A stretch of DNA of 64,000 bases from Pseudomonas sp. PDM05 (GTDB taxonomy: Bacteria > Pseudomonadota > Gammaproteobacteria > Pseudomonadales > Pseudomonadaceae), in NCBI RefSeq assembly GCF_014851685.1, contig NZ_JACVAC010000002.1, forward strand, positions 186,001 to 250,000, in the 5' to 3' direction. Numbering within the stretch: position 1 is the first letter of the stretch; the number at the start of each line of letters is the position of its first letter. Below, in pieces: positions 4,168-55,868 of the stretch. Under the pieces are notes generated by a model. It worked only from the letters and a program-made list of their open reading frames with translations. It had not been told where the DNA came from and made no database searches. The translations under genes were made by a program, and so were the position numbers.

Positions 4168-7051
<2,884 letters not shown>

Positions 7052-7106
7052 AAATGAGAACGCCAGGGCGGCTTTTACACAACCGCCCTGGGTTCCAGGA
7101 ACCACA

Positions 7107-7535
7107 ATGACCCAAGTCGACTTCTATATATTGCCCAGCGCCGACCCGCTCGCGCGCCTGGACTTTGCCTGCAAACTCACTGAAAAAGCCTGGCGCATGG
7201 GTCACCGCATCTACCTGCATTGCAGCGATGCGGCCCAACGCGACGAGCTGGATGCCCGCCTGTGGCGTTTCAAGGGCGAAAGCTTCGTGCCCCACGGCCC
7301 CGCCGAGTCAGAACCCGAAAGCCTGGTGGTCCTGGGCTTGGGCGACAACTGCGGCGATCACCATGACCTGCTGGTCAACCTGGACCTGAAAGTGCCGCCG
7401 TTCGCCAAGGCGTTTGCCCGCGTGGCAGAGGTGGTGGTGGAAGACCCGGCTATTCGTCAGGCGGCGCGGGAGAGTTTCCGTTTCTATCGCGAACAGGGCT
7501 ATCCTTTGCAGGATCACCGGCTACAACGACTTTGA
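7107..7535 (+). CDS. holC: DNA polymerase III subunit chi
   Basis: Chi subunit of the clamp loader (142 aa), which links the DNA polymerase III holoenzyme to SSB. The sequence has the family pattern: VDFYILPS at the N-terminus, the conserved ACKLTEKAWRMGHRIY helix, RLWRFKGESFVPHG, and RFYREQGYPLQDH near the end. SD AGGAA lies 7 bp before ATG. Its place between pepA and valS is the standard gammaproteobacterial order, with a small unknown gene inserted before valS as in other Pseudomonas. Confidence 0.95.
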   Translation: MTQVDFYILPSADPLARLDFACKLTEKAWRMGHRIYLHCSDAAQRDELDARLWRFKGESFVPHGPAESEPESLVVLGLGDNCGDHHDLLVNLDLKVPPFAKAFARVAEVVVEDPAIRQAARESFRFYREQGYPLQDHRLQRL

Positions 7536-7539
7536 GTAA

Positions 7540-7923
7540 ATGATGGACACTCCCAACTCGGTAAAAAAAGACGACCACCTGCTGGACGACCTGGAGTCGA
7601 TCCGCCAGTTGCTCGGTGACGACGGCCTGCAACCGCCACTGCTGACCGACTCGGTCGATGCAGAGGTACAGATCCCGCTGTTGTTCGATATGGTCGGCGC
7701 CAAGCCCGCTGCGCCGGAGCCGGTTGCCGCTGCTGTCGAGCCCGCCCCCGCCGAAAAAGGCCAGGACGCCCTGCTGCTGCACCTGGACAACGAACTGCGT
7801 GCCGCCGCGCAACTGATCATGCAAGACGTCATCGACGACTTCGCCCCGCATATCGAAACCGAGATCAAGCGTCGGCTGGATGCGCGGATGGAGCGGTTGC
7901 TCGCTGCAGCGACAAGTAACTAG
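7540..7923 (+). CDS. Small conserved Pseudomonas protein between holC and valS
   Basis: A 127-aa acidic soluble protein with no recognised domain. Residues 1-70 are acidic and include DDHLLDDLESIRQLLGDD. A Pro/Ala-rich linker (~60-85) follows, then a C-terminal helical region containing ALLLHLDNELRAAAQLIMQD and DDFAPHIETEIKRRLDARM. It starts 4 bp after the holC stop, so it is cotranscribed; ATG 7540 and 7543 are both possible starts. By position it matches the hypothetical gene at this spot in P. aeruginosa (PA3833, from memory). A link to the replisome is only suggested by position. Confidence 0.8.
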   Translation: MMDTPNSVKKDDHLLDDLESIRQLLGDDGLQPPLLTDSVDAEVQIPLLFDMVGAKPAAPEPVAAAVEPAPAEKGQDALLLHLDNELRAAAQLIMQDVIDDFAPHIETEIKRRLDARMERLLAAATSN

Positions 7924-44600: not shown

Positions 44601-45236
44601 TCAGGGCACCATGCCACTTTCCCGTGCATAGGCATATAAGTCCACATCAGTGGAGATGCACAGTCGCAACATCGCCGTACTTTTCTGTTTACTGATCGTG
44701 GAGATACTGCGATTCACCTGTGCAGCAATCTGGCTGACAGTCATGCCACTGGCCAGCATTCGCACCACCTCCCGTTCTTTGCCGGACAATTGCGGAGGCT
44801 GGTCGTTTTTCGCGCTGCCGGCCAGGTCCATTTGGGCACGCAGGCATTCACTGACGAAGGTGCGCCCATTGATGACCGCCTTCAAGGCCAACGGCAACTC
44901 CCTCGCCGAAGCGCTCTTGGCCACAATCGCCCGGGCACCATGGCTGAACGCCGCCCTCAGGGTGGCAACGTTGGCAAACATGGTCACCAGAATCACTGGC
45001 AACGTCGGGTATTGGCGCTGCAACAAACCCAGCAAGCCAAAGCCGTCGGCCTGCTGGTCACCCGGCATAGCGAAATCGGTAACAATCACCTCGCACGGCG
45101 TACTCGCCACCAACGCCAACAGTTGGTCAGGACCATTGGCCTCACCGACAACTTTGCACAGACCACTGGCCTCGATCACCACTTTCTGCCCAACACGAAC
45201 AATCGGGTGATCGTCGGCAATAATTATCCGAAGCAT
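44601..45236 (-). CDS. NarL/FixJ-type response regulator beside the pilus locus
   Basis: 211 aa. Receiver domain (~1-120) with the acidic pair in IIIADDHPIVRVG, phospho-acceptor Asp54 in IVTDFAMPGD, Thr in VILVTMFANV and Lys in AIVAKSASA. LuxR-type HTH (~145-205: LSGKEREVVRMLASGMTV, SQIAAQVNRSISTISKQK). It resembles RcsB/BvgA/EvgA regulators. ATG 45236 has GGAAAG upstream; a second ATG is at 45248. It is transcribed away from the pilus operon and follows the receiver-HPt gene, so it is the natural output regulator of that phosphorelay. Confidence 0.9.
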   Translation of the reverse strand: MLRIIIADDHPIVRVGQKVVIEASGLCKVVGEANGPDQLLALVASTPCEVIVTDFAMPGDQQADGFGLLGLLQRQYPTLPVILVTMFANVATLRAAFSHGARAIVAKSASARELPLALKAVINGRTFVSECLRAQMDLAGSAKNDQPPQLSGKEREVVRMLASGMTVSQIAAQVNRSISTISKQKSTAMLRLCISTDVDLYAYARESGMVP

Positions 45237-45433
45237 CGTTCTTTCCATGATGGCAATTTGAGTATTTCAAAATACATCGACAAGACTTACACAACAACAG
45301 GCGATCTCGTACAAGTTGCGGGTCCTAACCCTTGTTCACACGGCACCAACTTACGCCTACAAAATAAAAAGAATTAACTTACAGAAACACCCTACAAACA
45401 ATAATTAAAAGTCTTACATATCTATGTAAAAAA

Positions 45434-46249
45434 TCACAAATCAGCCAAATACAGCAGGTAGCGCTCGATGTCCCCATTGAAACGCTCAAGCAACGACCTG
45501 TTCGCCGCAACACCCGTGCGTCGTACCCGCTCGATCAGATGCATCGCCCGCTGCTCAAGGCCGGTATCGCCTAAAAATGCCACACCACCGACCAGCCGAT
45601 GCAAATGGTGGGTGGTCAGGGCTGCATCGAAAGCGTTTCGTGCACTATCCAGTGCCGCCAGATCGTCGTGGGCTTCTTGAATCAGGCAAAACAGCAGGGG
45701 TTCGACAACTTCCCAGAAACCGAAGGTGGCAATCAGGCTCGCCCGCGTTGGATACCTGCCGTGCAGGCGTGACAAGTTGGCCGCTCGCCTGCCCTGCTGC
45801 CGATACGTTTCAGGGGCAGGCAACCAGTACAACAGCATGTCTCGCAGTTGCCCCAGCGTGATGGGCTTGAGCATCCAGTCGTCCATGCCGCACGCCACAC
45901 AGCGCTGGATCTGTGCGATGTCCAGGCAGGCGGTCAAGGCAATCACGGGAATACGCGCCGCACACGCTTCACTTTCGCGCTGGCGCAGTTCAAGGGTCAT
46001 GGCATAGCCGTCCATTACCGGCATGCGGCAGTCGCTGATAACCAGGTGAAAGGGGCGCGTTGCCAGCGCCTCAAGGGCTTGCTGCCCATTTTCGACCGTT
46101 TCGTGAGCCACTCCCAACACTTGCAGAAATGAGCCGATCAACAAACGGTAGGCACTGTGGTCGTCTGCCAGCAACACCCGGATTGCTTGCCAATGTGGCG
46201 GCGGAGACATGGCGTTGCCTGGACCACGACCGGCACTGGTGTGCTGCAT
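45434..46249 (-). CDS. Stand-alone receiver-HPt phosphorelay protein
   Basis: 271 aa. Receiver domain (~22-140) with LLADDHSAYR, phospho-acceptor Asp73 in ISDCRMPVMDG and Lys128 in WMLKPI, then a linker and an HPt domain (~165-265) with His217 in HRLVGGVAFLG. This Rec-HPt order is that of the C-terminus of BvgS/EvgS hybrid kinases, but the sensor, kinase and ATPase parts are absent. Starts at 46249 or 46210 are possible. It lies 401 bp from the first pilin gene, divergent, and 197 bp upstream of the NarL-type regulator. Confidence 0.88.
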   Translation of the reverse strand: MQHTSAGRGPGNAMSPPPHWQAIRVLLADDHSAYRLLIGSFLQVLGVAHETVENGQQALEALATRPFHLVISDCRMPVMDGYAMTLELRQRESEACAARIPVIALTACLDIAQIQRCVACGMDDWMLKPITLGQLRDMLLYWLPAPETYRQQGRRAANLSRLHGRYPTRASLIATFGFWEVVEPLLFCLIQEAHDDLAALDSARNAFDAALTTHHLHRLVGGVAFLGDTGLEQRAMHLIERVRRTGVAANRSLLERFNGDIERYLLYLADL

Positions 46250-46650
46250 AGCTACCTCGCGCAAAACGATCAGCGCGCCGGCCATGCATGTGGCTGACGG
46301 GTGCCGACCTGACGGTCGACCTCACTCGATTTTTTCGCGCAAGGACCTGTATCACCATTCAAAGTAATGAATTGACGTGATTTACCCGCAAAAAAAATAT
46401 CCGAACGAATGATTGATGGCGATACAACAACTACGACATTGCAGCTTTCCCTGCATACACGGCGTGACGTTTCAAAAAAATCCTGCCCTGATCGCGTTCT
46501 CGTAAAAGTTGCATGTTTCCTGGCCAGAGCCGGCGCTAAATTCGCCGCCGCTCTGGCCATCGAAGGCGCAGGGGGGCGAGTACTGCCACGCCCCCATCAA
46601 CGCACGGCCCGAGCTCCCCCTATTCCTGTACGACACGGAGCTCACTTCAC
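46250..46650. other. Divergent control region of the pilus locus
   Basis: 401 bp with no gene, locally AT-rich around 46345-46480. It contains the element described at 46494-46560 and an A-rich stretch at 46391-46398. The region should hold the promoters for the receiver-HPt gene (minus) and the first pilin (plus). No standard sigma-70 pair with 16-18 bp spacing was convincing for the pilin. Confidence 0.5.
46494..46560 (+). promoter_or_regulatory. Upstream element 1 of the pilin genes
   Basis: Carries gcgttctcgtaaaagttgcat, then ttgcat (46509-46514), a 22-bp spacer ending ggcgc, and taaatt (46537-46542), then tcgccgccgctc. The same framework recurs before the second pilin gene at 47311-47376, with ttgcat, the same 22-bp spacing ending ggcgc, and tacagt. 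It ends 108 bp before the first pilin ATG. The abnormal spacing suggests an activator-dependent promoter or a regulator site. Confidence 0.55.
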
Positions 46651-47283
46651 ATGAAACCTCTCTTCTACCCCCTGGTCGCCACTGCCTTGCTGGCCAGTAC
46701 CGCCTCGGTTTTGGCGGCCAGCAGCGTCGACCTGAACGTAACAGGCCTCATCACCCCCAGCGCCTGCACGCCAACCCTGAGCCAGGGCGGTTCCATCGAT
46801 TTGGGCAAGCTGGCGGCCAAAGACCTGACTGAAGACATGGAAACCGAACTGCCGGCGATCACCCTGCAACTCAGCGTGAATTGCGAGGCCCCCGTGCTGT
46901 TTGCCCTGCAGGGCACGGACAACCGCCCCGGCACCGCCATTACCCCGGACGGTTATGGCCTGGGCCTGACCGACGCCGCCGAGAAACTGGGGGCCTTTAG
47001 GCTTGCATTGCGCGATGCCGTTGCCGACTCCACCAGGGTCACCGCCCTCCTGTCGGCGGACGACGGTGTCACTTGGCAGGAGCGGGAATACCCCAACACC
47101 TGGAATCGCACGGGGTTGGCGGCGTTCGGCAGCAATTCGGGCGGTGTCTGGACGCCCCAGGCCGCCAAGGAGCTGACCAGTGACCTGGTTGTCGAGACCT
47201 ACATCTCCGCCAGCCGAGACTTGACCCTGACCGACGAACAAACCATCGACGGCTCGGCCACCCTGGAAGTGCGCTACCTCTAA
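46651..47283 (+). CDS. DUF1120 pilin-like subunit 1
   Basis: 210 aa secreted protein. Signal peptide of 22 residues ending SVLA, mature N-terminus ASSVDLNVTGLITPSACTP. A Cys in PSAC and a second in LSVNCEAP would form the pilin disulfide. The protein ends in GSATLEVRYL, a beta-strand with penultimate Tyr as in chaperone-usher pilins. I take the family as DUF1120, known in Pseudomonas as putative fimbrial proteins. SD GGAG is 10 bp before ATG. It is the first gene of the locus. Function as a pilin is inferred from chaperone and usher genes downstream. Confidence 0.85.
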   Translation: MKPLFYPLVATALLASTASVLAASSVDLNVTGLITPSACTPTLSQGGSIDLGKLAAKDLTEDMETELPAITLQLSVNCEAPVLFALQGTDNRPGTAITPDGYGLGLTDAAEKLGAFRLALRDAVADSTRVTALLSADDGVTWQEREYPNTWNRTGLAAFGSNSGGVWTPQAAKELTSDLVVETYISASRDLTLTDEQTIDGSATLEVRYL

Positions 47284-47310
47284 CGCCCGCTCGGCATTCA
47301 GCCGCGCAGA

Positions 47311-47376
47311 GCGCTTTCGTATTAGTTGCATTTCAGCCACCCAAGTGCGGCGCTACAGTCGCCGACGCTCAGGCAA
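47311..47376 (+). promoter_or_regulatory. Upstream element 2 of the pilin genes
   Basis: gcgctttcgtattagttgcat followed by a 22-bp spacer ending ggcgc (47332-47353), tacagt (47354-47359) and tcgccgacgctc. It repeats the layout of element 1 and ends 107 bp before the second pilin ATG. It suggests that promoter and gene were duplicated together. Confidence 0.55.
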
Positions 47377-47466
47377 TGACGGCGCGATGGGGTCCCCCCT
47401 CACAAGAATAAATGTTGGGTTCCTGTCAGCGCCCTGCCCGAGCCTTGTTCCAAAGGAGTTCCATTA

Positions 47467-48108
47467 ATGAAAGCCTTATCCACAACCCTGTTGGCCGCCA
47501 CCCTGCTTGGCCTTACACCTTGCGTGCTGGCCGCCAGCGGCGTGGACCTGACACTCAAGGGCAGCATTACACCCAGTGCCTGCGTCCCCACACTGACCCA
47601 GGACGGTACGGTCGATTACGGCAAGATCGCGGCCAAGGAGTTGTCCATGAACAGCTCCACCGAACTCCCGCCTGCCAACCTGCAACTGAGCGTGAACTGT
47701 GAGGCCCCAACCCTGTTTGCGCTGAACGGCAAGGACAACCGCTTTGGTACAGCCCACTACTCCGCCTTGAACTGGGCCTACGGCCTGGGCTTGATCAACG
47801 GCACCGAAAAGTTGGGCAGCTACGGCATTGACGTGCTCAACCCTGTTTCGGACGTTGTGCTGTACCCGCTGTTTTCCTTCAACAACGGCCAAAGCTGGTT
47901 GATGAACCCCTCGGGCAGCTACATGTCGCACAGCGCCTTGAATGCCTTCACTGACATCCCCGGCAGCGGGCCTCACTTTCCGGCCGCCCTGCGCAACATC
48001 ACCGTCGACCTGCGCATCTCCACCGACATCGCGCCAGCCAGGACCCTGACCCTGACCGAGGAAGTGCCGTTGGATGGCAGTGCCTCGCTGGACCTGCTGT
48101 ACCTCTGA
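47467..48108 (+). CDS. DUF1120 pilin-like subunit 2
   Basis: 213 aa. Signal peptide ends PCVLA; mature start ASGVDLTLKGSITPSACVP. Cys pair in PSAC and LSVNCEAP; C-terminus GSASLDLLYL. It is close to subunit 1 in the first 90 residues (DYGKIAAKELS) but has a different middle, including NWAYGLGLINGTEKLGSY. Excellent SD AAGGAG lies 8 bp upstream. The 183-bp gap from subunit 1 contains upstream element 2, so it may have its own promoter. Confidence 0.85.
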   Translation: MKALSTTLLAATLLGLTPCVLAASGVDLTLKGSITPSACVPTLTQDGTVDYGKIAAKELSMNSSTELPPANLQLSVNCEAPTLFALNGKDNRFGTAHYSALNWAYGLGLINGTEKLGSYGIDVLNPVSDVVLYPLFSFNNGQSWLMNPSGSYMSHSALNAFTDIPGSGPHFPAALRNITVDLRISTDIAPARTLTLTEEVPLDGSASLDLLYL

Positions 48109-48147
48109 CCACCGTCCCCAAACGCCCACCCACAAGGACTTGTGCCC

Positions 48148-48771
48148 ATGGATAAAACCCCCTCCGCCGCCCTCGCGCTCCTGCTGGCGGCCTGCACACC
48201 CGGCGCCATCGCCGCCAGCAATACGGACCTGAGCGTCACCGGGATCATCACCCCGGCGTCGTGCACACCCAGCCTGTCCGACGGCGGCGTAGTCGATCAC
48301 GGCAAATTGACCGCCAGGGACCTGGAACTGGACAAGCCCACCAGTCTGCAAACCGGCGAAATGCGCCTGCACGTGCAGTGCGAGGGGGCGACATTCTTCA
48401 CCCTGACCACCTTGGACAACCGCGCCGGCAGCTCGGCAATCAACCCGGCGCATCATGGGCTGGGCATCATCAACGATGACCAGAAACTCGGCAGCGTGGC
48501 GCTCGGCCTATTTGACCCGGTGGCCGACAGCCAGCCGGTGCAAGCCATCCTCTCCCGAGACGGCGGTGCCACCTGGTATCCCTCTTCATACCTGGGGCAC
48601 GCCGGCTTGACGTCGTTTGCGACGCCAAGCGATCCCTACACACCAATCGCCTTGCAAGAGCTGAGCGCTCGCCTGCGCGCCTTCACCATGATCGTGCCCG
48701 CCACCGACCTGACCTTGCTCGACGAGGTGCCGATCGACGGCCAGGCCACGCTGCAACTCAAATATTGGTAA
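48148..48771 (+). CDS. DUF1120 pilin-like subunit 3, with lipobox-like signal
   Basis: 207 aa. Signal peptide MDKTPSAALALLLAACTPGA contains LAAC, which fits a lipobox, but the normal signal peptidase I site AIA-AS two turns later gives the same mature start (ASNTDLSVTGIITPASCTP) as the other subunits. Cys pair in PASC and HVQCEGA. It ends ATLQLKYW, with Trp where the others have Leu. ATG 48148 is preferred over GTG 48142 by Shine-Dalgarno spacing (AAGGAC). Which peptidase acts is undecided; a lipid anchor would make it a pilus base or terminator candidate. Confidence 0.83.
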   Translation: MDKTPSAALALLLAACTPGAIAASNTDLSVTGIITPASCTPSLSDGGVVDHGKLTARDLELDKPTSLQTGEMRLHVQCEGATFFTLTTLDNRAGSSAINPAHHGLGIINDDQKLGSVALGLFDPVADSQPVQAILSRDGGATWYPSSYLGHAGLTSFATPSDPYTPIALQELSARLRAFTMIVPATDLTLLDEVPIDGQATLQLKYW

Positions 48772-48809
48772 CCCTCGCTTTCCCTTAACCTCTACTCAGG
48801 AGCTCAACC

Positions 48810-49433
48810 ATGAACACCGCGTTCAAATCCCTAACCGCCGTCCTTCTGTTCGCTGGCAGCACCAGTGCCTTCGCCGCGTCCAGCGTCGACTTGACCGTCA
48901 AGGGCCTGATCACCCCAAGTGCCTGCACCCCCGCCCTGTCCAACAGCGGTTCAGTCGACTACGGCAAGATTTCGGCCAAAGACCTGAACATCGACCAGGT
49001 GACCCCACTCGACGAGCAAACCGTGCAGCTCACCGTCACCTGCGATGCTGCGACGCTGATGGCGCTGGACGCCAACGACAACCGCGCCGGCTCGAACTAC
49101 GGTGGCAACACCGCGGAGTTCGGCCTGGGCCTGATCAACGGTACGGAAAAGCTCGGCGCCATGAACCTGAGCTTGAACGCGCCCGTCGCCGATGGCGTGG
49201 CTGGCCGTCCGATCGCCTCTGCCGATGGCGGGGTCACCTGGCTCAGCGAACGCAATCTGACACCTGCCAACCTGGTGTCGGTGGCCGACGCCACGGTCGA
49301 CGCGCCAATCCCTGTGCAGGTGCTGACTTCGGACCTGATTGTCAGCCCCAAAATCGCCCCATCCAGTCAATTGACGCTGACCAACGAAGCCGCCATTGAC
49401 GGCTCGGTCACCGTAACCGTGCGCTACTTGTAA
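48810..49433 (+). CDS. DUF1120 pilin-like subunit 4
   Basis: 207 aa. Signal peptide ends TSAFA; mature start ASSVDLTVKGLITPSACTP, then DYGKISAKDLNIDQVTPL. Cys pair in PSAC and LTVTCDAA; C-terminus GSVTVTVRYL. It is the closest to the family average, with neither odd signal nor altered motifs, so it is a fair candidate for the main shaft subunit. SD AGGAGC lies 8 bp before ATG, 38 bp after subunit 3. Confidence 0.85.
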   Translation: MNTAFKSLTAVLLFAGSTSAFAASSVDLTVKGLITPSACTPALSNSGSVDYGKISAKDLNIDQVTPLDEQTVQLTVTCDAATLMALDANDNRAGSNYGGNTAEFGLGLINGTEKLGAMNLSLNAPVADGVAGRPIASADGGVTWLSERNLTPANLVSVADATVDAPIPVQVLTSDLIVSPKIAPSSQLTLTNEAAIDGSVTVTVRYL

Positions 49434-49451
49434 GCACACCTTGAAGCGTGT

Positions 49452-49476
49452 GGCGTCAGGCACCCCGCCTGGCGCC
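49452..49476 (+). promoter_or_regulatory. Hairpin between pilin genes 4 and 5
   Basis: ggcgtcaggc (49452-49461) pairs with gcctggcgcc (49467-49476), 9 of 10 bp, around a 5-nt loop. No T tract follows, so it is not a classic terminator. It may be an mRNA-stability or processing element that sets the pilin to chaperone-usher ratio. Confidence 0.5.
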
Positions 49477-49521
49477 GTCTCGCATTGAAACGATGAAACA
49501 GGCAACCGGTGAACCTCTTCC

Positions 49522-50151
49522 ATGAAGCACACCCTTCCACGCCTTCTCTCCATGCTTTTCCTGCTGGGTAGCGGGCCTTCGGCCCTGGCTGCATCCAGTG
49601 TCGAGCTGAACATCACGGGCCTGATCACCCCCAGCGCCTGCAACGCCACATTGTCTGCCAACGGCATCGTCGACCACGGCATGGTCCCGGCACGCACGCT
49701 CAACCAGTTCGAATTCAGTGCGTTGCCCACCCAGTCCCTGGACTTGACGGTGAGCTGTAACGAACCGGTGCTGTACGTACTGGTGGGCCTGGACAATCGC
49801 GCCGACTCCTCCCTGGGCCCCGGTTTTTACTATGGCCTGGGGAATAACGTGCATGTCCCTTCCGAGCGACTGGGTACGGTCTCCCTGGCGTTTCGCGAAG
49901 TGATGGGCGACGGCCAGCGTGCATTGGTGCTGGCCTCCAGCAACCAGGGGCTGACCTGGTTCCCGGAAACCAACGCCTACCCGGACAACTTCATGGGTTT
50001 TGCCCACCCGGGCACCCTGGTGCCGGAGCCCCACCGCCTGCTCACCGCCACCCTGCAAATCAACACGTCCATCAATGCGGCCGCCTACCTGACCCTGAAG
50101 CAGGAAGTGCCGCTGGACGGTTCTATCGTGCTTGACCTGAGGTATTTGTAG
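49522..50151 (+). CDS. DUF1120 pilin-like subunit 5, divergent
   Basis: 209 aa. Signal peptide ends PSALA; mature start ASSVELNITGLITPSACNA. The conserved GKIxAKDLN block is altered to VDHGMVPARTLNQFEFSALP, making this the most diverged single-domain subunit. Cys pair in PSAC and LTVSCNEP; C-terminus GSIVLDLRYL. It ends 2 bp before the chaperone ATG, so the two are translated together. Position and divergence suggest an adaptor or minor subunit; that is inference. Confidence 0.83.
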   Translation: MKHTLPRLLSMLFLLGSGPSALAASSVELNITGLITPSACNATLSANGIVDHGMVPARTLNQFEFSALPTQSLDLTVSCNEPVLYVLVGLDNRADSSLGPGFYYGLGNNVHVPSERLGTVSLAFREVMGDGQRALVLASSNQGLTWFPETNAYPDNFMGFAHPGTLVPEPHRLLTATLQINTSINAAAYLTLKQEVPLDGSIVLDLRYL

Positions 50152-50153
50152 CC

Positions 50154-50891
50154 ATGACGTCCCTGCCCCTTCTAACCCGCGCCTTTGTCTGTGTGCGCTA
50201 CGCCGGGGTCTACCTCGGCGCACTCGCCTTGTCGCTCGCCGGCCCCGCGCTTGTTCTCGCCGATGGCATGGTGCCCGACACCTCGGTGGTGATCGTCAAC
50301 GAAGCCGACGGCGAAGCCTCGGTCACCGTGACCAATACCGATGACAAGTTGGCCCTGTTGCATGTGACCCTGGAAGACATTCCCGAAGACAAGGCGACCT
50401 TGCTGTTCGTGACTCCTCCCCTGGCCCGGGTCGAGCCAGGCAAAAGCCAGCTCATTCGTTTCATTCTGCAGGCGCCTGAACCCTTGGCCACCCAACGCCT
50501 CAAGCGGGTGATCTTCGAGGGCATGCCCCAAGGCCGTTCGGCAGCGCAGGCCGGGCATGCGCGCGTCGGCGTGACGGTACGCCAGAACCTACCCGTGATC
50601 CTGCACCCCAAGGGCCTGGCGCCCAATCGCACCCCCTGGACCGGGCTTGAGTGGCGCTTGAGCCACGACCAATTGAGCGTGAGCAACCCCACGCCCTACG
50701 TGGTGCGCCTGGCCCAGGAACTGCGGCTGCTGCCCGGAAACGGTTCGGCGTTGCTGCCGCGTACTTATGTGCTGCCGGGCGAAACCCTGAAGATGACGGC
50801 CAGCAGCACTGGCGCCAGTCGCATTCAGCTGCAACCGGCCACGGTCTATGGCTTTGCGGTAGCGCCCTACGAAGCACCGATCTCCCTATAA
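50154..50891 (+). CDS. PapD-like periplasmic pilus chaperone
   Basis: 245 aa. Signal peptide (~1-36, ending ALVLAD), then two immunoglobulin-like domains. The G1-strand region VEPGKSQLIRFILQAPEP carries the conserved Lys and hydrophobic alternation used for donor-strand complementation, and the domain 1 N-terminus has TSVVIVNEADGEASVTVTN. Domain 2 includes ARVGVTVRQNLPVILHPKG and SNPTPYVVRLAQELRLLP. It folds subunits and delivers them to the usher. It is the only chaperone gene here, so it probably serves all eight subunits. Confidence 0.9.
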   Translation: MTSLPLLTRAFVCVRYAGVYLGALALSLAGPALVLADGMVPDTSVVIVNEADGEASVTVTNTDDKLALLHVTLEDIPEDKATLLFVTPPLARVEPGKSQLIRFILQAPEPLATQRLKRVIFEGMPQGRSAAQAGHARVGVTVRQNLPVILHPKGLAPNRTPWTGLEWRLSHDQLSVSNPTPYVVRLAQELRLLPGNGSALLPRTYVLPGETLKMTASSTGASRIQLQPATVYGFAVAPYEAPISL

Positions 50892-50984
50892 AAAAGAGTG
50901 GCCTGCCAACGCCACCAGAAGGCCTGACTGAACCGCAGAGTCGGCGGGCCATCCACAGTTGAGTATGACCTTGTGAGCACAGCA

Positions 50985-53432
50985 ATGACTGACCGCTACG
51001 GCGGAGCCGTGCCCGGCGTTTCACCGCGCCGCGCACACACACTAGTGGCGGGGCTGGCGCTGGCCCTGGGCGGCACCCTGCCGTCCGAGGCACCGCTGGC
51101 GGACACCCTGATCGCCGGTTCCTTCGACCCCCAGACGCTGTCCCGACGCGGCATCGACCCGGATCTGGCCAACCTGCTGCTGCAAGCTCCACGCTTCGCG
51201 GCTGGCCGGCATGCCGTGAACCTGAGCGTCAACGGCCAGCGCCGGGGCCGGGTGGATGTGACCTTCGACCGCGACGCAGCGCTCTGTTTCAACCAGGCCC
51301 TGCTGGATGCGGGTAACTTGCAGGAGCCCGAAAACAACGACGCTGCAACCTGCCACCGATTCACCGAGCGCTACCCGCAAACCGTGATCGAGCAGGACCC
51401 CGCCAGCCTGAGCCTGGCCCTGGTGGTGCCGACCGAGGCCCTGCGCCCGGCCCGGCAGGACATTACCGGCTACCAGACCGGTGGTTTCGCCGGCCTGCTC
51501 AACTACGACCTGACCGGGCTCTACAACGAGTTCGGCGATACCACCAGCCGCTTCGGCTCGGCCAACACCGAAGTGGGCTTCAATGCCGGCGACTGGATCG
51601 TGCGCAGCCGCCAGGTCAAGACCTGGCAAGACAGCCGCTCGCGCACCACCCACCTGGACGCCTACGCCCAGCGTACCTTCGCCGCGCAACAGGCGGTGTT
51701 GCAGGCCGGGCAGATCAGCCTTTACAACCCGGTCCTGGCCGGTACACAGATCACTGGCGCGCAAGTGCTGACCGAAACCGCGCTGCAAGACCAGAACCAG
51801 GGCGCGACCATCACCGGCATCGCCAACAGCCCGGCGCAGGTGGAGGTGCGCCAGAACGGCGCGCTGATCCACTCCAGCGTGGTGCCGGCGGGGCCGTTCG
51901 CCCTGACCGATGTGCGCCGCTTGAACGGTCGCTCCGACGTGGAAGTCACCGTCAAGGAAACCACCGGCGAAGAGCGCCGCTTTACCGTCCCTGCCGCCAT
52001 GCTTGGCCTGGGCCTGCCGGCGCCGGGTTATTCGGTGGCCGCCGGGCGCGTGCGGCAGATCGGCGAAAGCCAAGGCAAGGAGCCCTGGGTAGTCAGTGCC
52101 GGCTGGAGCGGTGCCGTACATCCACAGCTCAGTGTGGGCGGTGGGGCGCTGGTGGCGGATGCTTATCGGGCGGCGGGCTTCAACCTGGGGTGGCTGCCCT
52201 GGCAGGACAGCCAACTGCAATTCTCCGCACAGGGTGCCGAAGCCAGCCGCGAGGGGCGTGATCGCGGGGTGCAGACCGACCTGTCCTGGTCCCAGCGGTT
52301 GAGCGCCAGTTGGTCGGTCACCGGCGCAGGGTCCTGGCGCTCCCAGGGCTATCGCGACCTGGAAGACTCCACCTACGTCGGCAACAGCCGCGACCAGCAA
52401 CGTTCACGTTATCGCGACCAGCAAAGCCTCACCGCGTCCTGGGCGCACCCGGCCCTGGGGGCGTTCAGTGCAGGCGTCTCGCGTACGGCGTCCTACAACG
52501 GCGAAAGCAGCAGCCGCGCATTGGCAGCCTGGGGCACCAGCTTTGGTCGGGTATCGGTCTCGGCCAGCGCCGAATGGCAGGTCGGTGGTCGTCAGCAGAA
52601 CGACAACAGCCTCTACCTGAACATCAGCCTGCCCTTCGGTGAAAACCGCCGCGCCCGCACCTGGGCCCGCAAGACCGGCAGTGAGCATCGCCTGGGCGCC
52701 GGCTTGAGCGAGCAACTCAACGATCAACTCAGCTACCGGGTCGGCGTGGAACGCGACAGCCGCGACCGCGAGGTGGAGTCGTCATTCGGCGTGTCGGCCC
52801 TGCCGTGGTACAGCCAGCTGGATTTCAACTACACCCGCAGCGACGACGAGCATTCCAGCTATCAAGGTGGCGCCCGCGGCGGCGTGGTACTGCACGGCGA
52901 CGGCGTGACGTTTTCGCCCTACCCGGTGCGCGACACCTTTGCGGTGATGTCCGTGGGGGAAATGGCCGGGATCAAAGTCAGCACCCCAAGCGGCCCGGTC
53001 TGGACCGACTGGCAAGGCCAGGCGGTGGTGCCGCAACTGAGCGCCTATGGCCGCAGCCCGGTGGAAGTGCAGACCCGTTCATTGCCGCGCAATGCCGACA
53101 TCCACAACGGCCTGGCGGTGATTTCCGCCGGGCGCGGGGCGGTGGACAAGGTGCAATTCGGCGTGGCGCTCACCCGCCGTGCGCTGTTGAACGTCACGAC
53201 CGATAGCGGCCAGCCGCTGCCACGCGGTGCAACTGTCAGCACCGCCGAGGGTGAATTCGTGACCTTGGTGCAGGAAGGCAGCCAAGTGTTCCTGCCCGAC
53301 GTGCTCGACCCGCGCGCCCTGTGGGTCAAGGCGCCGGGGCAGCCACGTTGTCGCCTGGATTTTGCCCTGCCGGAAGACGCCGACCCCGAGGTGTACTTCG
53401 AAACCGCACCAGCCCGGTGCCATCAGCCATGA
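50985..53432 (+). CDS. Outer-membrane pilus usher (FimD/PapC family)
   Basis: 815 aa. N-terminal domain after the signal peptide (SFDPQTLSRRGIDPDLANLL), a 24-strand barrel with plug (middle, ~130-640; TGYQTGGFAGLLNYDLTGLY, SGQ-like AGQISLYNPVLAGTQITGAQ), and C-terminal domains (GRGAVDKVQFGVALTRRALL) ending with a Cys pair in CRLDFALPEDADPEV...ARC. ATG 50985 or GTG 50973 could be the start. It exports chaperone-subunit complexes and assembles the pilus. The stop overlaps the first ATG of the next gene (ATGA). Confidence 0.92.
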   Translation: MTDRYGGAVPGVSPRRAHTLVAGLALALGGTLPSEAPLADTLIAGSFDPQTLSRRGIDPDLANLLLQAPRFAAGRHAVNLSVNGQRRGRVDVTFDRDAALCFNQALLDAGNLQEPENNDAATCHRFTERYPQTVIEQDPASLSLALVVPTEALRPARQDITGYQTGGFAGLLNYDLTGLYNEFGDTTSRFGSANTEVGFNAGDWIVRSRQVKTWQDSRSRTTHLDAYAQRTFAAQQAVLQAGQISLYNPVLAGTQITGAQVLTETALQDQNQGATITGIANSPAQVEVRQNGALIHSSVVPAGPFALTDVRRLNGRSDVEVTVKETTGEERRFTVPAAMLGLGLPAPGYSVAAGRVRQIGESQGKEPWVVSAGWSGAVHPQLSVGGGALVADAYRAAGFNLGWLPWQDSQLQFSAQGAEASREGRDRGVQTDLSWSQRLSASWSVTGAGSWRSQGYRDLEDSTYVGNSRDQQRSRYRDQQSLTASWAHPALGAFSAGVSRTASYNGESSSRALAAWGTSFGRVSVSASAEWQVGGRQQNDNSLYLNISLPFGENRRARTWARKTGSEHRLGAGLSEQLNDQLSYRVGVERDSRDREVESSFGVSALPWYSQLDFNYTRSDDEHSSYQGGARGGVVLHGDGVTFSPYPVRDTFAVMSVGEMAGIKVSTPSGPVWTDWQGQAVVPQLSAYGRSPVEVQTRSLPRNADIHNGLAVISAGRGAVDKVQFGVALTRRALLNVTTDSGQPLPRGATVSTAEGEFVTLVQEGSQVFLPDVLDPRALWVKAPGQPRCRLDFALPEDADPEVYFETAPARCHQP

Positions 53433-53443
53433 GGACGTTGACC

Positions 53444-54574
53444 ATGGGTCTGAAACACGCGCTGTATCCCTTGAGCTTGCTGCTGTTGGGCTCCCAGGCC
53501 TGGGCCGCGCAGGAGTGCCAGTTGAACCTCAGCCAGGCACAGCTGGACTTTGGCCTGATGAACCGCGCCGTTCCGTTGCTGGCCGCCACCGAACGGTTGC
53601 TGGGGGAGCGGCGGATCAGCCTGACGCTGAACTGCCCGCAGCCCACCGACATGAGCCTGTTTTATCGCAGCCTGGGCGCGGACACCGAGCGTTTTCGGTT
53701 TACCGAGCGCGGCAGCTACGGCCTGCGCGTCAGCGAAGCGCTGCTTGACAGCCAACCCGTGGAGCTCGGACTGATCGCGGGCCAGGGGCAAGCGCCGGCG
53801 ATTGTCGGCACTCAACTGGCCTGGCAACCGGGCCATGGACTCGTGCCGATACGCGGCGGTGTCGCAGTCACCGGGCACAACCTGTCATTGCAGATCGACG
53901 CCAGCGCCTGGGCCGATGAAAGCGCCACGCGCGTACGCGATGCGGTTACCTGGGACACCGCAGGGCTGTTTGACGCCCTCGCTGCCGGTCGCTCACGGGA
54001 ACTGCGCCTGCAAGCACGCTTTGCGCCGGCGGCCTGCACGCCCACGCTGTCCAATGGTGGGCATGTGGAACTGGGCAAGCTCTCGGTCAGCGATCTGAAT
54101 ATCGACAAGGAAACGCCCCTGGCGCCACGCCCGCTGTCACTCAGCGTGACCTGCGATGCGCCCACCGCCTTCGCCGTCCGCATGCAGGACAACCGCCAGG
54201 GCTCGGCAACCGGCACGGGCGACCAATCGGTATACGGGCTCGGCCTGGACGCCCGCCAACAGAAGATCGGCCGCTATCGGTTGCTGTTCGATCCGACACA
54301 CATCATCGCCGACAGCTTCTCCCAGGTGTTCAGCACCGACTCCGCCACCGCGGGCCTGCCCTGGAGCAGTGCCAGCAGCCGCATCGCGGCGGTCAGCGCC
54401 AATCGCTACCTGGGTTTCAGCGCCACGTCCGGCAGCACGGGTGGCCCCACCGCCATTCAAAACCTCAACGCCACGCTGAACCTCGAAGCGATCATTGCGC
54501 CTCTGGGCTCGCTGGATTTGGGCAATGAGGTACGGCTCGATGGTTCGGGCACCCTCGAAATCACCTACCTATAG
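53444..54574 (+). CDS. Two-domain candidate tip subunit with C-terminal DUF1120 domain
   Basis: 376 aa. Signal peptide ending QAWA, an N-terminal domain (~20-190; CQLNLSQAQLDFGLMNRAVP, LTLNCPQPTDMSLFY) with its own Cys pair, then a full DUF1120 domain (~195-376: ACTPTLSNGGHVELGKLSVS, DLNIDKETPL, VTCDAPTAF) ending GTLEITYL. Two domains with only one pilin-type N-terminus is the design of tip adhesins such as FimH. GAGG lies 9 bp before ATG 53444; an earlier ATG at 53429 overlaps the usher stop. What it binds is unknown. Confidence 0.8.
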   Translation: MGLKHALYPLSLLLLGSQAWAAQECQLNLSQAQLDFGLMNRAVPLLAATERLLGERRISLTLNCPQPTDMSLFYRSLGADTERFRFTERGSYGLRVSEALLDSQPVELGLIAGQGQAPAIVGTQLAWQPGHGLVPIRGGVAVTGHNLSLQIDASAWADESATRVRDAVTWDTAGLFDALAAGRSRELRLQARFAPAACTPTLSNGGHVELGKLSVSDLNIDKETPLAPRPLSLSVTCDAPTAFAVRMQDNRQGSATGTGDQSVYGLGLDARQQKIGRYRLLFDPTHIIADSFSQVFSTDSATAGLPWSSASSRIAAVSANRYLGFSATSGSTGGPTAIQNLNATLNLEAIIAPLGSLDLGNEVRLDGSGTLEITYL

Positions 54575-54583
54575 GAGCACCCC

Positions 54584-55207
54584 ATGAAACCCTTTCTGAT
54601 GACCCTGATCACCACGCTAGGACTGGCCACCATGGCGCCGGCCCACGCGGCCTCCAGCGTCGACCTGAGTGTCAGCGGCCTGATCACCCCTAGCGCCTGT
54701 GAGCCCAGCCTGTCCAACGGCGGGATATATGACTTGGGCAAGATTGCCGCCAAAGACCTGAATGTCGATCAGCCCACCAAGTTGGCTGAGCACACCCTGC
54801 AACTGTCGATCACCTGCGAGGCATTGACGTTGCTGGCGCTGAAGCCCAGGGACAACCGCCTCGATTCCGCGGGTGCAGTGGGGACGACGCGATTCGGCCT
54901 GGGGATGGCCAACGAGAGCGTAGCGCTTGGCTACATGCATCTGAACCTCGGCTCGATCGTGGCTGATGGCGTCGGTATGTACCCCATCGGCTCCAGCGGC
55001 CCATCCACCTGGGCGCCGACGAGTATGTTGTCGCATTACTTTCTGTCCTCGTTCTCCCTTAACAGAAACCCAATGGTGCCGGCTCCGGTGAAACAACTCA
55101 CGGCCGCTGTACTGATCTCCCCGACCATCGCCCCGAGTAACACGCTGCCGTTGACCGAAGAAATCCCCATCGACGGTTCCGTCACCCTGTCCATGAACTA
55201 TTTGTAG
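54584..55207 (+). CDS. DUF1120 pilin-like subunit 6
   Basis: 207 aa. Signal peptide ends APAHA; mature start ASSVDLSVSGLITPSACEP, followed by IYDLGKIAAKDLNVDQPTKL. Cys pair in PSAC and LSITCEAL; C-terminus GSVTLSMNYL. SD AGGAGC lies 9 bp after the tip gene stop and 6 bp before ATG. It is one of two subunits encoded after the usher, away from the first five. Confidence 0.84.
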   Translation: MKPFLMTLITTLGLATMAPAHAASSVDLSVSGLITPSACEPSLSNGGIYDLGKIAAKDLNVDQPTKLAEHTLQLSITCEALTLLALKPRDNRLDSAGAVGTTRFGLGMANESVALGYMHLNLGSIVADGVGMYPIGSSGPSTWAPTSMLSHYFLSSFSLNRNPMVPAPVKQLTAAVLISPTIAPSNTLPLTEEIPIDGSVTLSMNYL

Positions 55208-55217
55208 GAGACCGATC

Positions 55218-55868
55218 ATGAAAACGTTACTGATCCCTCTGGCGACCTGTGCATGGTTGGCCAGCATCGGAGCAGCCCAGGCCGCGTCCACCGTCGAACT
55301 GACCGTCGGTGGCCTGATCACGCCCATGGCGTGTACCCCCGTATTGTCCGGTGGCGGGCTGATCGACTTCGGCAAGATCTCCCAACAAGACCTCAATCAG
55401 GCCACGGGGACGCGGCTGCCGCTCAAGTCACTGACCTTGACCGTCAGTTGCAATGCCCCAGGCCGCTACGCCCTGCGCATGCGCGATAACCGCGACGGCA
55501 GCGCCCACGTCAACAGCGAGATCTACTACGGCCTGGGGCTGGACAGCGCAGGCAACAAAATTGGCGTGTATTCGGTGAAGTTCGACCCCAGGCAGACCGT
55601 GGCCGACGCGTTGCCCGTGGCCTATGGCACTGAGTCCACCACCGGCGGCCTGGCGTGGCGCACGTCCAACCTCAATCCCATCGACGTCGGTTCGCGCAGC
55701 TTGCTGGGCTTTACCGATGTGGCGGGCAGCACCGCAGGGCCCTCGGCGATCCAGAACCTGACAAGCACCCTGACCCTGGAGGCAGTGATCAACGCCAAGC
55801 AGAACCTTGAACTGAGTGTGGAGACGCCCATGGACGGCTCCGCGACGCTGGAGGTGGTTTACCTGTAA
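55218..55868 (+). CDS. DUF1120 pilin-like subunit 7
   Basis: 216 aa. Signal peptide ends GAAQA; mature start ASTVELTVGGLITPMACTP. Cys pair in PMAC and LTVSCNAP; C-terminus GSATLEVVYL. The segment YYGLGLDSAGNKIGVYSVKF and the ending with TSTLTLEAVINAKQNLELS resemble the pilin domain of the tip protein more than the upstream subunits, suggesting recent duplication from it. SD AGGAG is 6 bp before ATG. The stop abuts the convergent MFS stop with no space, so no separate terminator fits. Confidence 0.84.
   Translation: MKTLLIPLATCAWLASIGAAQAASTVELTVGGLITPMACTPVLSGGGLIDFGKISQQDLNQATGTRLPLKSLTLTVSCNAPGRYALRMRDNRDGSAHVNSEIYYGLGLDSAGNKIGVYSVKFDPRQTVADALPVAYGTESTTGGLAWRTSNLNPIDVGSRSLLGFTDVAGSTAGPSAIQNLTSTLTLEAVINAKQNLELSVETPMDGSATLEVVYL

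Follow-up and report, generated by a model that had tools for sequence, protein, structure and literature searches.

Which subunit stands at the tip of a chaperone-usher fibre whose pilins all seem to belong to DUF1120? The question is raised by a locus in a stretch of 64,000 nucleotides from Pseudomonas sp. PDM05 (genome size 6.03 Mb); the whole of that stretch is called the window. The locus comprises ten open reading frames at 46651-55868, all on the + strand: seven single-domain DUF1120 proteins, a chaperone, an usher and one two-domain protein, here called T (53429-54574). Genes, order and coordinates are as given in an earlier reading of the sequence (the original prediction), and the pattern recurs in 33 loci of a genus sample and in 80 named loci, two overlapping sets. 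The named loci are the best 80 of 262 confirmed relatives, 79 from Pseudomonas and one from Luteibacter, all of the expanded type described below.

It is probable that the locus encodes a beta-type chaperone-usher pilus, with T as its tip and the linker of T filling the first domain of T in cis. The domain families, the gene order, the short N-terminus of the tip domain, the homology between stand-alone and fused tip domains and the predicted folds are computed; from these we infer the cis pairing of strands, the tip position, an adhesive role, the subunit order and the making of a fibre at all. The features of the locus are as follows.

46651..47283, + strand: DUF1120 pilin 1, slot C-5 (fifth before the chaperone), 210 amino acids; PF06551 at E 1.4e-12.
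47467..48108, + strand: DUF1120 pilin 2, slot C-4, 213 amino acids; PF06551 at E 1.5e-14.
48148..48771, + strand: DUF1120 pilin 3, slot C-3, 207 amino acids, C-terminus Tyr-Trp; PF06551 at E 2.8e-15; best relatives 85-86% identical; start taken by choice as the ATG at 48148 in preference to the GTG at 48142.
48810..49433, + strand: DUF1120 pilin 4, slot C-2, 207 amino acids, modelled; PF06551 at E 1.3e-16; AlphaFold2 pLDDT 93.9; VIA match to FimG (3jwn_G) at Z 9.3.
48876..48923, + strand: N-terminal extension of pilin 4, mature residues 1-16, a predicted donor strand from its residue pattern and the AlphaFold2 monomer, which has no secondary structure there.
49522..50151, + strand: DUF1120 pilin 5, slot C-1 (a conserved slot), 209 amino acids; PF06551 at E 2.9e-9.
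50154..50891, + strand: periplasmic chaperone, presumably of the YhcA family (NF007392 in NCBIfam, 252.5 bits, above the cut-off), with R118, R185 and Y205 at the non-classical carboxylate anchor places.
50973..53432, + strand: outer-membrane usher, YhcD/StjB-like (beta clade), from NF011832 (670.7 bits) and the usher tree.
53429..54574, + strand: two-domain protein T, the putative tip protein, 381 amino acids, its start overlapping the usher stop (ATGA); Pfam, NCBIfam and AlphaFold2.
53507..53977, + strand: N-domain of T (mature residues 1-157), tip-like, without an N-terminal extension, homologous to stand-alone tip proteins and YhcE; NCBIfam, profile matches and AlphaFold2.
53990..54022, + strand: linker strand of T (mature residues 162-172, RSRELRLQARF), predicted to be both the last strand of the N-domain and the N-terminal extension of the C-domain; AlphaFold2 and VIA, with Ala at -7 from the first Cys of the C-domain.
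54023..54571, + strand: C-domain of T, a DUF1120 pilin domain of incomplete fold; Pfam E 4.9e-19, AlphaFold2 and VIA.
54584..55207, + strand: DUF1120 pilin 6, slot T+1, 207 amino acids; PF06551 at E 3.5e-15.
55218..55868, + strand: DUF1120 pilin 7, last slot, 216 amino acids; PF06551 at E 2.6e-17; best relative 95% identical.

Pilins, chaperone and usher

In Pfam, the seven single-domain proteins and the C-terminal half of T all match PF06551 (DUF1120) above its curated cut-off, at E values from 2.9e-9 to 4.9e-19. Judged by predicted fold and residue pattern, DUF1120 is a pilin family, as had been proposed: an incomplete immunoglobulin-like fold is preceded by an N-terminal extension patterned as in FimA, FimF and FimG. 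Counted back from the first Cys, position -7 is Gly in 528 of 548 subunits, -9 is Val in 498, -11 is Leu in 503 and -5 is Ile in 467, while 468 chains end in Tyr-Leu; the 548 come from 556 non-redundant single-domain subunits, the eight without a PxxC motif being left out. FimA, FimF and FimG of Escherichia coli K-12 also have Gly at -7, and the available text of PMC5022761 gives the solved donor strand of CupB1 as alternating G, V, F, G and I in five pockets. The mature start described in the original prediction (AS-x-V-D/E-L followed by GLITP-x-A-C) is exact in five of the seven single-domain proteins of the window; the protein at 47467 has GSITP, and that at 48148 has ASNTDL...GIITPASC. The Cys pair is present once in each mature domain, with a third Cys in the signal peptides of 47467, 48148 and 55218, and the C-termini are likewise as described, with Tyr-Leu in seven of the eight DUF1120 chains and Tyr-Trp in one.

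Structure prediction of subunits taken alone, suggested earlier as a check, was run on pilin 4 and on T, and gives an incomplete pilin fold both in pilin 4 and in the C-domain of T, the latter by AlphaFold2 and VIA. The AlphaFold2 model of pilin 4, made from 104 aligned sequences, has a pLDDT of 93.9; residues 1-16 have no secondary structure, the mean pLDDT over residues 1-10 is 67, and the first strand begins at residue 17. Chaperone-usher subunits occupy every one of the 50 VIA rows shown, among them FimG, which together with its own extension aligns over 2-185 at Z 9.3, and the first Foldseek rows are type 1 pilus subunits; the predicted fold matches FimG, FimA and PapA. The locus should make a donor-strand-exchange polymer, in which the N-terminal extension of a DUF1120 pilin would be the donor strand for the neighbouring subunit. 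A pilin-pilin fusion considered as a second test of such exchange, an open reading frame of 410 amino acids in locus L127, proved to be an over-long reading frame.

The number of pilins had been thought high for one usher. Named expanded loci hold between 1 and 11 single-domain pilins (median 5), with five in 27 of the 80 and seven or more in 13, counting genes on the usher's strand within ~10 kb, without divergent DUF1120 genes or parts that lie past the end of a contig; for Cronobacter, the available text of PMC7545074 also reports seven putative beta subunits. Seven is thus above the median and ordinary for such loci. The best match of a pilin lies in the same slot in 69% of comparisons for the slot next to the chaperone, 58% for the third from the chaperone and 69% for the last, and in fewer for the other slots. 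The outer pilins were considered as recent duplicates, an idea rejected on their mutual identity of only 33-52%.

The chaperone carries PapD_N and PapD_C, and the usher carries Usher, PapC_N and PapC_C (Pfam). R118, R185 and Y205, placed by alignment with EcpB and FimC after PMC4654587, are kept in all 160 beta chaperones (144 of them distinct), and the classical Arg and Lys are absent from all 160. The available text of PMC4654587 likewise describes beta chaperones as lacking the classical anchor residues for the pilin C-terminus and having those of archaic chaperones instead. The chaperone would deliver pilins to the usher, gripping the C-terminus of each through the arginine/tyrosine anchor that archaic and alternative chaperones are known to have.

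The best NCBIfam model of the usher is NF011832, the next model scoring 200 bits. In the usher tree, which took in no kappa or sigma usher, seven E. coli ushers, presumably all gamma/pi, group with the third usher of the PDM05 genome (C44) at a support of 1.0, leaving out both YhcD and the window usher; the 35 ushers of the expanded type fall together in a single group (support 0.86). Beta ushers also stand apart in the genus sample, with 76 places at 480 bits or more and the next at 294. The best named matches of the window usher are Pseudomonas ushers at 86-89% identity, for example from Pseudomonas sp. MYb60, Pseudomonas sp. KBW05 and P. extremorientalis, which we take to be members of the P. 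fluorescens group. PDB sequence searches with the chaperone and usher match known fimbrial or capsule chaperones and ushers only. Across 369 genomes of the class, the NCBIfam usher model at 1e-110 finds the window genome only, a limit that also misses E. coli (1e-60), and the usher alignment A1 at 1e-90 finds 3 of the 369, namely the window genome and two ambiguous cases (307-332 bits). Among the matches listed in a plasmid search, related ushers have 27-35% identity.

A DUF1120 profile built from the window pilins finds GltF and YhcF in the E. coli K-12 locus (L038). The PDM05 locus resembles the beta-fimbriae (gltF-yhcADEF in E. coli), a clade named for ushers by Nuccio and Baumler, as quoted in the available text of later papers. 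Beta pili had never been characterised, to the knowledge of the authors of PMC5216030 in 2017, and the available text of that paper calls the function of YhcE unclear. The original prediction, in knowing of no detailed description of such a pilus, agrees with that paper and missed that the family has a name. A description of a beta tip subunit was not found in the literature searched, in which coverage of subscription papers is limited.

The tip-like domain, stand-alone and fused

T most likely starts at 53429. Its N-terminal half has no DUF1120 match in Pfam and in NCBIfam matches NF011829, a hypothetical protein of 189 amino acids. The locus had been described as built entirely from DUF1120, which is wrong because this half is a separate tip-like domain. 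The NCBIfam models PRK15301-15304, which presumably derive from the Salmonella stj locus, match the N-domain of T, the pilins and the usher. The first Cys of T is residue 4 of the mature chain, the signal-peptide cut being an estimate, and the N-domain is therefore without an N-terminal extension.

Homologues of this domain follow the usher in most loci of the genus sample, which covers 149 Pseudomonas genomes and holds 74 loci besides the window, with 75 ushers. Compact loci run in the order pilin-chaperone-usher-tip, and expanded loci in the order pilins-chaperone-usher-T-pilins. Of the 75 ushers, 39 are followed by the gene for a stand-alone tip domain, 33 by T, one by a pilin and two by nothing recognised; the tip domain or T thus comes directly after 72 of them. 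Each of the 80 named loci has a single T, longer than 330 amino acids, after its usher (15 of the 33 expanded-type ushers in the genus sample have an identical named counterpart, and the two sets together hold 98 distinct ones). The genome of PDM05 holds both types, the expanded locus of the window and a compact one on contig 33 (L044: pilin, chaperone, usher, stand-alone tip domain at 7027-7692). Tip-domain classes were assigned with a hidden Markov model iterated from the N-domain of the window's T; its last round also matched pilins, hence a limit of 100 bits, which seven pilins still passed. The gene order of L116 is odd: pilin, pilin, chaperone, tip domain, pilin, usher, pilin, pilin. Contig 2 of genome G051 carries, near 309300-314700, a decayed beta-like locus with 16 stops in its usher and short DUF1120 frames; this usher pseudogene was left out of the analysis.

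The short N-terminus is shared by the stand-alone copies. The hydrophobic stretch of the signal peptide is separated from the first Cys by 1-12 residues in 37 of the 40 stand-alone tip proteins, as measured by alignment, and by 12-24 in most pilins, in a search limited to 9 residues or more. YhcE from an intact E. coli locus (181 amino acids) matches the N-domain of T at 48 bits, and in that locus the yhcE stop overlaps the yhcF start (ATGA). T looks like a stand-alone tip domain fused to a DUF1120 pilin. Because 37 of the 40 stand-alone copies end at T-equivalent positions 157-166, the strand at 162-172 seems to come from the second domain of T, and the stand-alone proteins thus appear to have little or none of it.

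The predicted structure of T bears on what this strand does. The AlphaFold2 model (76 sequences, pLDDT 92.0) has strands at 147-157, 162-172 and 177-181. The top VIA row is the CupB6 tip adhesin, aligned over both domains (275 residues, Z 10.9). C-terminally extended FimA (6s09) aligns to 2-175 at Z 9.4, self-complemented FimA (2jty) and self-complemented CsuA/B (6fm5) each to 3-174, and FimG with its extension to 163-355, these ranges being the first and last aligned residues only. The Foldseek list opens with three rows of fusions, CfaE-CfaB and CfaB-CfaB. Residues 162-172 thus fall within both sets of VIA alignments, in one closing the N-domain as its last strand and in the other serving as the extension that precedes the C-domain, and strand positions and structural alignments together suggest that this strand pairs in cis with the N-domain. 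In the linker, counted as in the pilins, Ala stands at -7 in 76 of 76 sequences, Leu at -9 in 74 and Phe at -5 in 73.

T would therefore sit at the tip of the fibre in the proposed mechanism, since nothing can sit beyond a first domain without an N-terminal extension. Its second domain would be a DUF1120 pilin, and the extension of that pilin, having become the linker between the two domains, would fill the first one in cis; the free groove of this second domain would take the next pilin, and the seven single-domain pilins would build the rest of the fibre. In the compact relatives a separate tip protein (YhcE in E. coli) would have its groove filled in trans by a pilin extension, and T would be such a pair fused.

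The Ala at -7 may be a further mark of the subunit next to the tip. The pilin of single-pilin compact loci has Gly at this position in 34 of 34, and a pilin directly after a stand-alone tip gene has Ala in L049 and Val in E. coli YhcF. Ala or Val was considered as a rule for pilins after a separate tip gene and rejected, only two of four being non-Gly. By these counts Ala is fixed in the T fusion, and the mark is weak outside T, not being general among unfused followers.

Whether the arrangement holds for the whole family is an even call. Beta-fimbriae would then have a tip subunit, the YhcE/T family: a pilin-like domain that lacks its own donor strand, fused to its neighbour in one lineage, with an intermolecular donor-strand contact becoming intramolecular. 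The fusion, and perhaps the change of Gly to Ala, would mark the neighbour of the tip and so give a clue to subunit order. The general nature of the locus, a named and uncharacterised kind of pilus, is known; the identifiable candidate tip subunit, the role for YhcE and the natural fusion of tip and neighbour are new. Such a candidate makes beta-fimbria function testable in non-pathogenic Pseudomonas and provides a role for YhcE. If two successive subunits have indeed been fused in nature, this would be evolutionary evidence for their order in the fibre and for complementation by donor strands, and T would offer crystallographers a protein that is already partly self-complemented.

Weighing the proposed tip

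A number of observations weigh against T as a self-complemented beta tip. The pTM of the T model is 0.69, and both AlphaFold2 models are of single chains; Foldseek gives T low TM-scores (0.16-0.39 over the first 13 rows), and unrelated immunoglobulin-like proteins (integrin alpha-V, CEP192, a peptidase, ciliary proteins) appear in the Foldseek and VIA lists of T. The usher's 670.7 bits fall below the NF011832 subfamily cut-off of 723. The usher phylogeny, which had been called for, does keep the window usher outside the fully supported group of E. coli ushers; rooted on EcpC, however, it puts these classical ushers inside the beta group, and the monophyly of beta is therefore not recovered, the root being uncertain. 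In two of the 75 loci (L112 and L113: chaperone, usher, pilin) no tip gene was found downstream of the usher, and in a third this place is taken by a pilin. Three stand-alone tip proteins, in L043, L088 and L110 (the last judged by eye), have a longer stretch before the first Cys, and that of L103 seems truncated. The tails of three of the 40 reach T-equivalent 172, and those ending at 163-166 enter the place of the strand by a few residues. The pilins directly after the stand-alone tip gene in L109 and L116 have Gly at -7; that of L109 also heads a second chaperone-usher set.

Unlikely, with published argument on its side, is the alternative that the locus makes no long fibre and instead forms thin fibrillae or an afimbrial surface structure. 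The available text of PMC5216030 quotes a suggestion that beta pili have no tip subunits and may be afimbrial or thin, and that of PMC3373541 describes Salmonella stj as having no typical adhesin gene. The argument from an absent tip weakens if YhcE/T is the tip subunit, and the single-domain subunits of the window all have both the extension and a DUF1120 match.

It is quite improbable that T is an ordinary two-domain adhesin of the FimH or UclD kind, with a complete lectin-like N-domain of which the linker strand is simply the last strand. The N-domain of T resembles F17-like lectin domains (UclD and UcaD, tied at VIA Z 9.0-9.1) about as well as it does C-terminally extended FimA. Against this, the stand-alone copies of the domain have little or none of strand 162-172, 37 of the 40 ending at T-equivalent 157-166 and three at 172. 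Moreover, the linker of T lies at the distance of a pilin extension from the pilin Cys, with the same alternation, and E. coli YhcF, a pilin with such an extension, is encoded by a separate gene directly after YhcE.

That the locus is silent or decaying, its many pilins being leftovers of duplication, is very improbable: outer pilin slots do vary between species and the yhc locus of K-12 is interrupted by IS5, but none of the ten reading frames is broken, close orthologues persist in some slots from species to species (as in the 95% identity of the last pilin to its relative), and a LuxR-type regulator stands beside 76 of the 80 named loci.

Related systems and chromosomal surroundings

The yhc locus of E. 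coli (gltF-yhcA-yhcD-yhcE-yhcF) has the same DUF1120 subunits, YhcA-family chaperone, related usher and tip-like YhcE after the usher as the locus proposed here to encode a T-tipped pilus. In E. coli, YhcE and the pilin YhcF are separate genes, whereas T looks like their fused equivalent, and two single-domain pilins (GltF and YhcF) compare with seven in PDM05. The yhcE gene of K-12 is the one interrupted by the insertion sequence IS5. GltF of K-12 (L038, 4177-4941), which takes its name from the glutamate synthase operon, shows the residue pattern of DUF1120 pilins with Gly at -7; its gene heads the yhc pilus genes, and GltF, which looks like a pilin, is also listed in the available text of PMC5216030.

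Two further beta systems were compared by description only. Salmonella stj (usher StjB) is, in the available text of PMC9238391, the only beta-fimbria reported for Salmonella enterica subsp. enterica; it differs from the PDM05 locus in being described without a typical adhesin gene (PMC3373541). The beta-fimbriae of Cronobacter sakazakii (ESA_03512-03521) likewise come from a single cluster that encodes chaperone, usher and seven putative subunits; the available text of PMC7545074 names no tip protein.

The type 1 pilus of E. coli (FimA/F/G/H, FimC and FimD) shares the pilin fold, the extension with Gly at -7 and a two-domain tip, but has an usher of another group and other anchor residues in its chaperone, and the lectin domain of its FimH is not known to need a donor strand. 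Among the two-domain tip adhesins CupB6 and CupE6 of Pseudomonas aeruginosa and CsuE, CupB6 is the best whole-length structural match of T. They differ in sequence, as the one match of T in a PDB sequence search is to an unrelated protein at E 0.067, and in that the first domain of T has stand-alone homologues in sister loci.

Upstream of the pilins, two genes on the opposite strand are candidates for regulation.

44601..45248, - strand: LuxR-type response regulator, divergent, a candidate regulator (Pfam); beside 76 of the 80 named expanded loci.
45434..46285, - strand: receiver and Hpt-like protein, a candidate phosphorelay partner (Pfam Response_reg, with Hpt below its cut-off); beside 47 of the 80.

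The median identity of the LuxR-type regulator in those 76 loci is 80%, and the 44 compact or other loci give one weak match (36%). A downstream transporter adjoins 78 of the 80 named expanded loci. The expanded loci mostly share one chromosomal site, and the linkage of the regulators may therefore be positional as well as functional. Several expanded loci, among them L119-L124, L126 and L127, carry one more DUF1120 gene upstream of the pilins, in the opposite orientation (for example p227r in L119).

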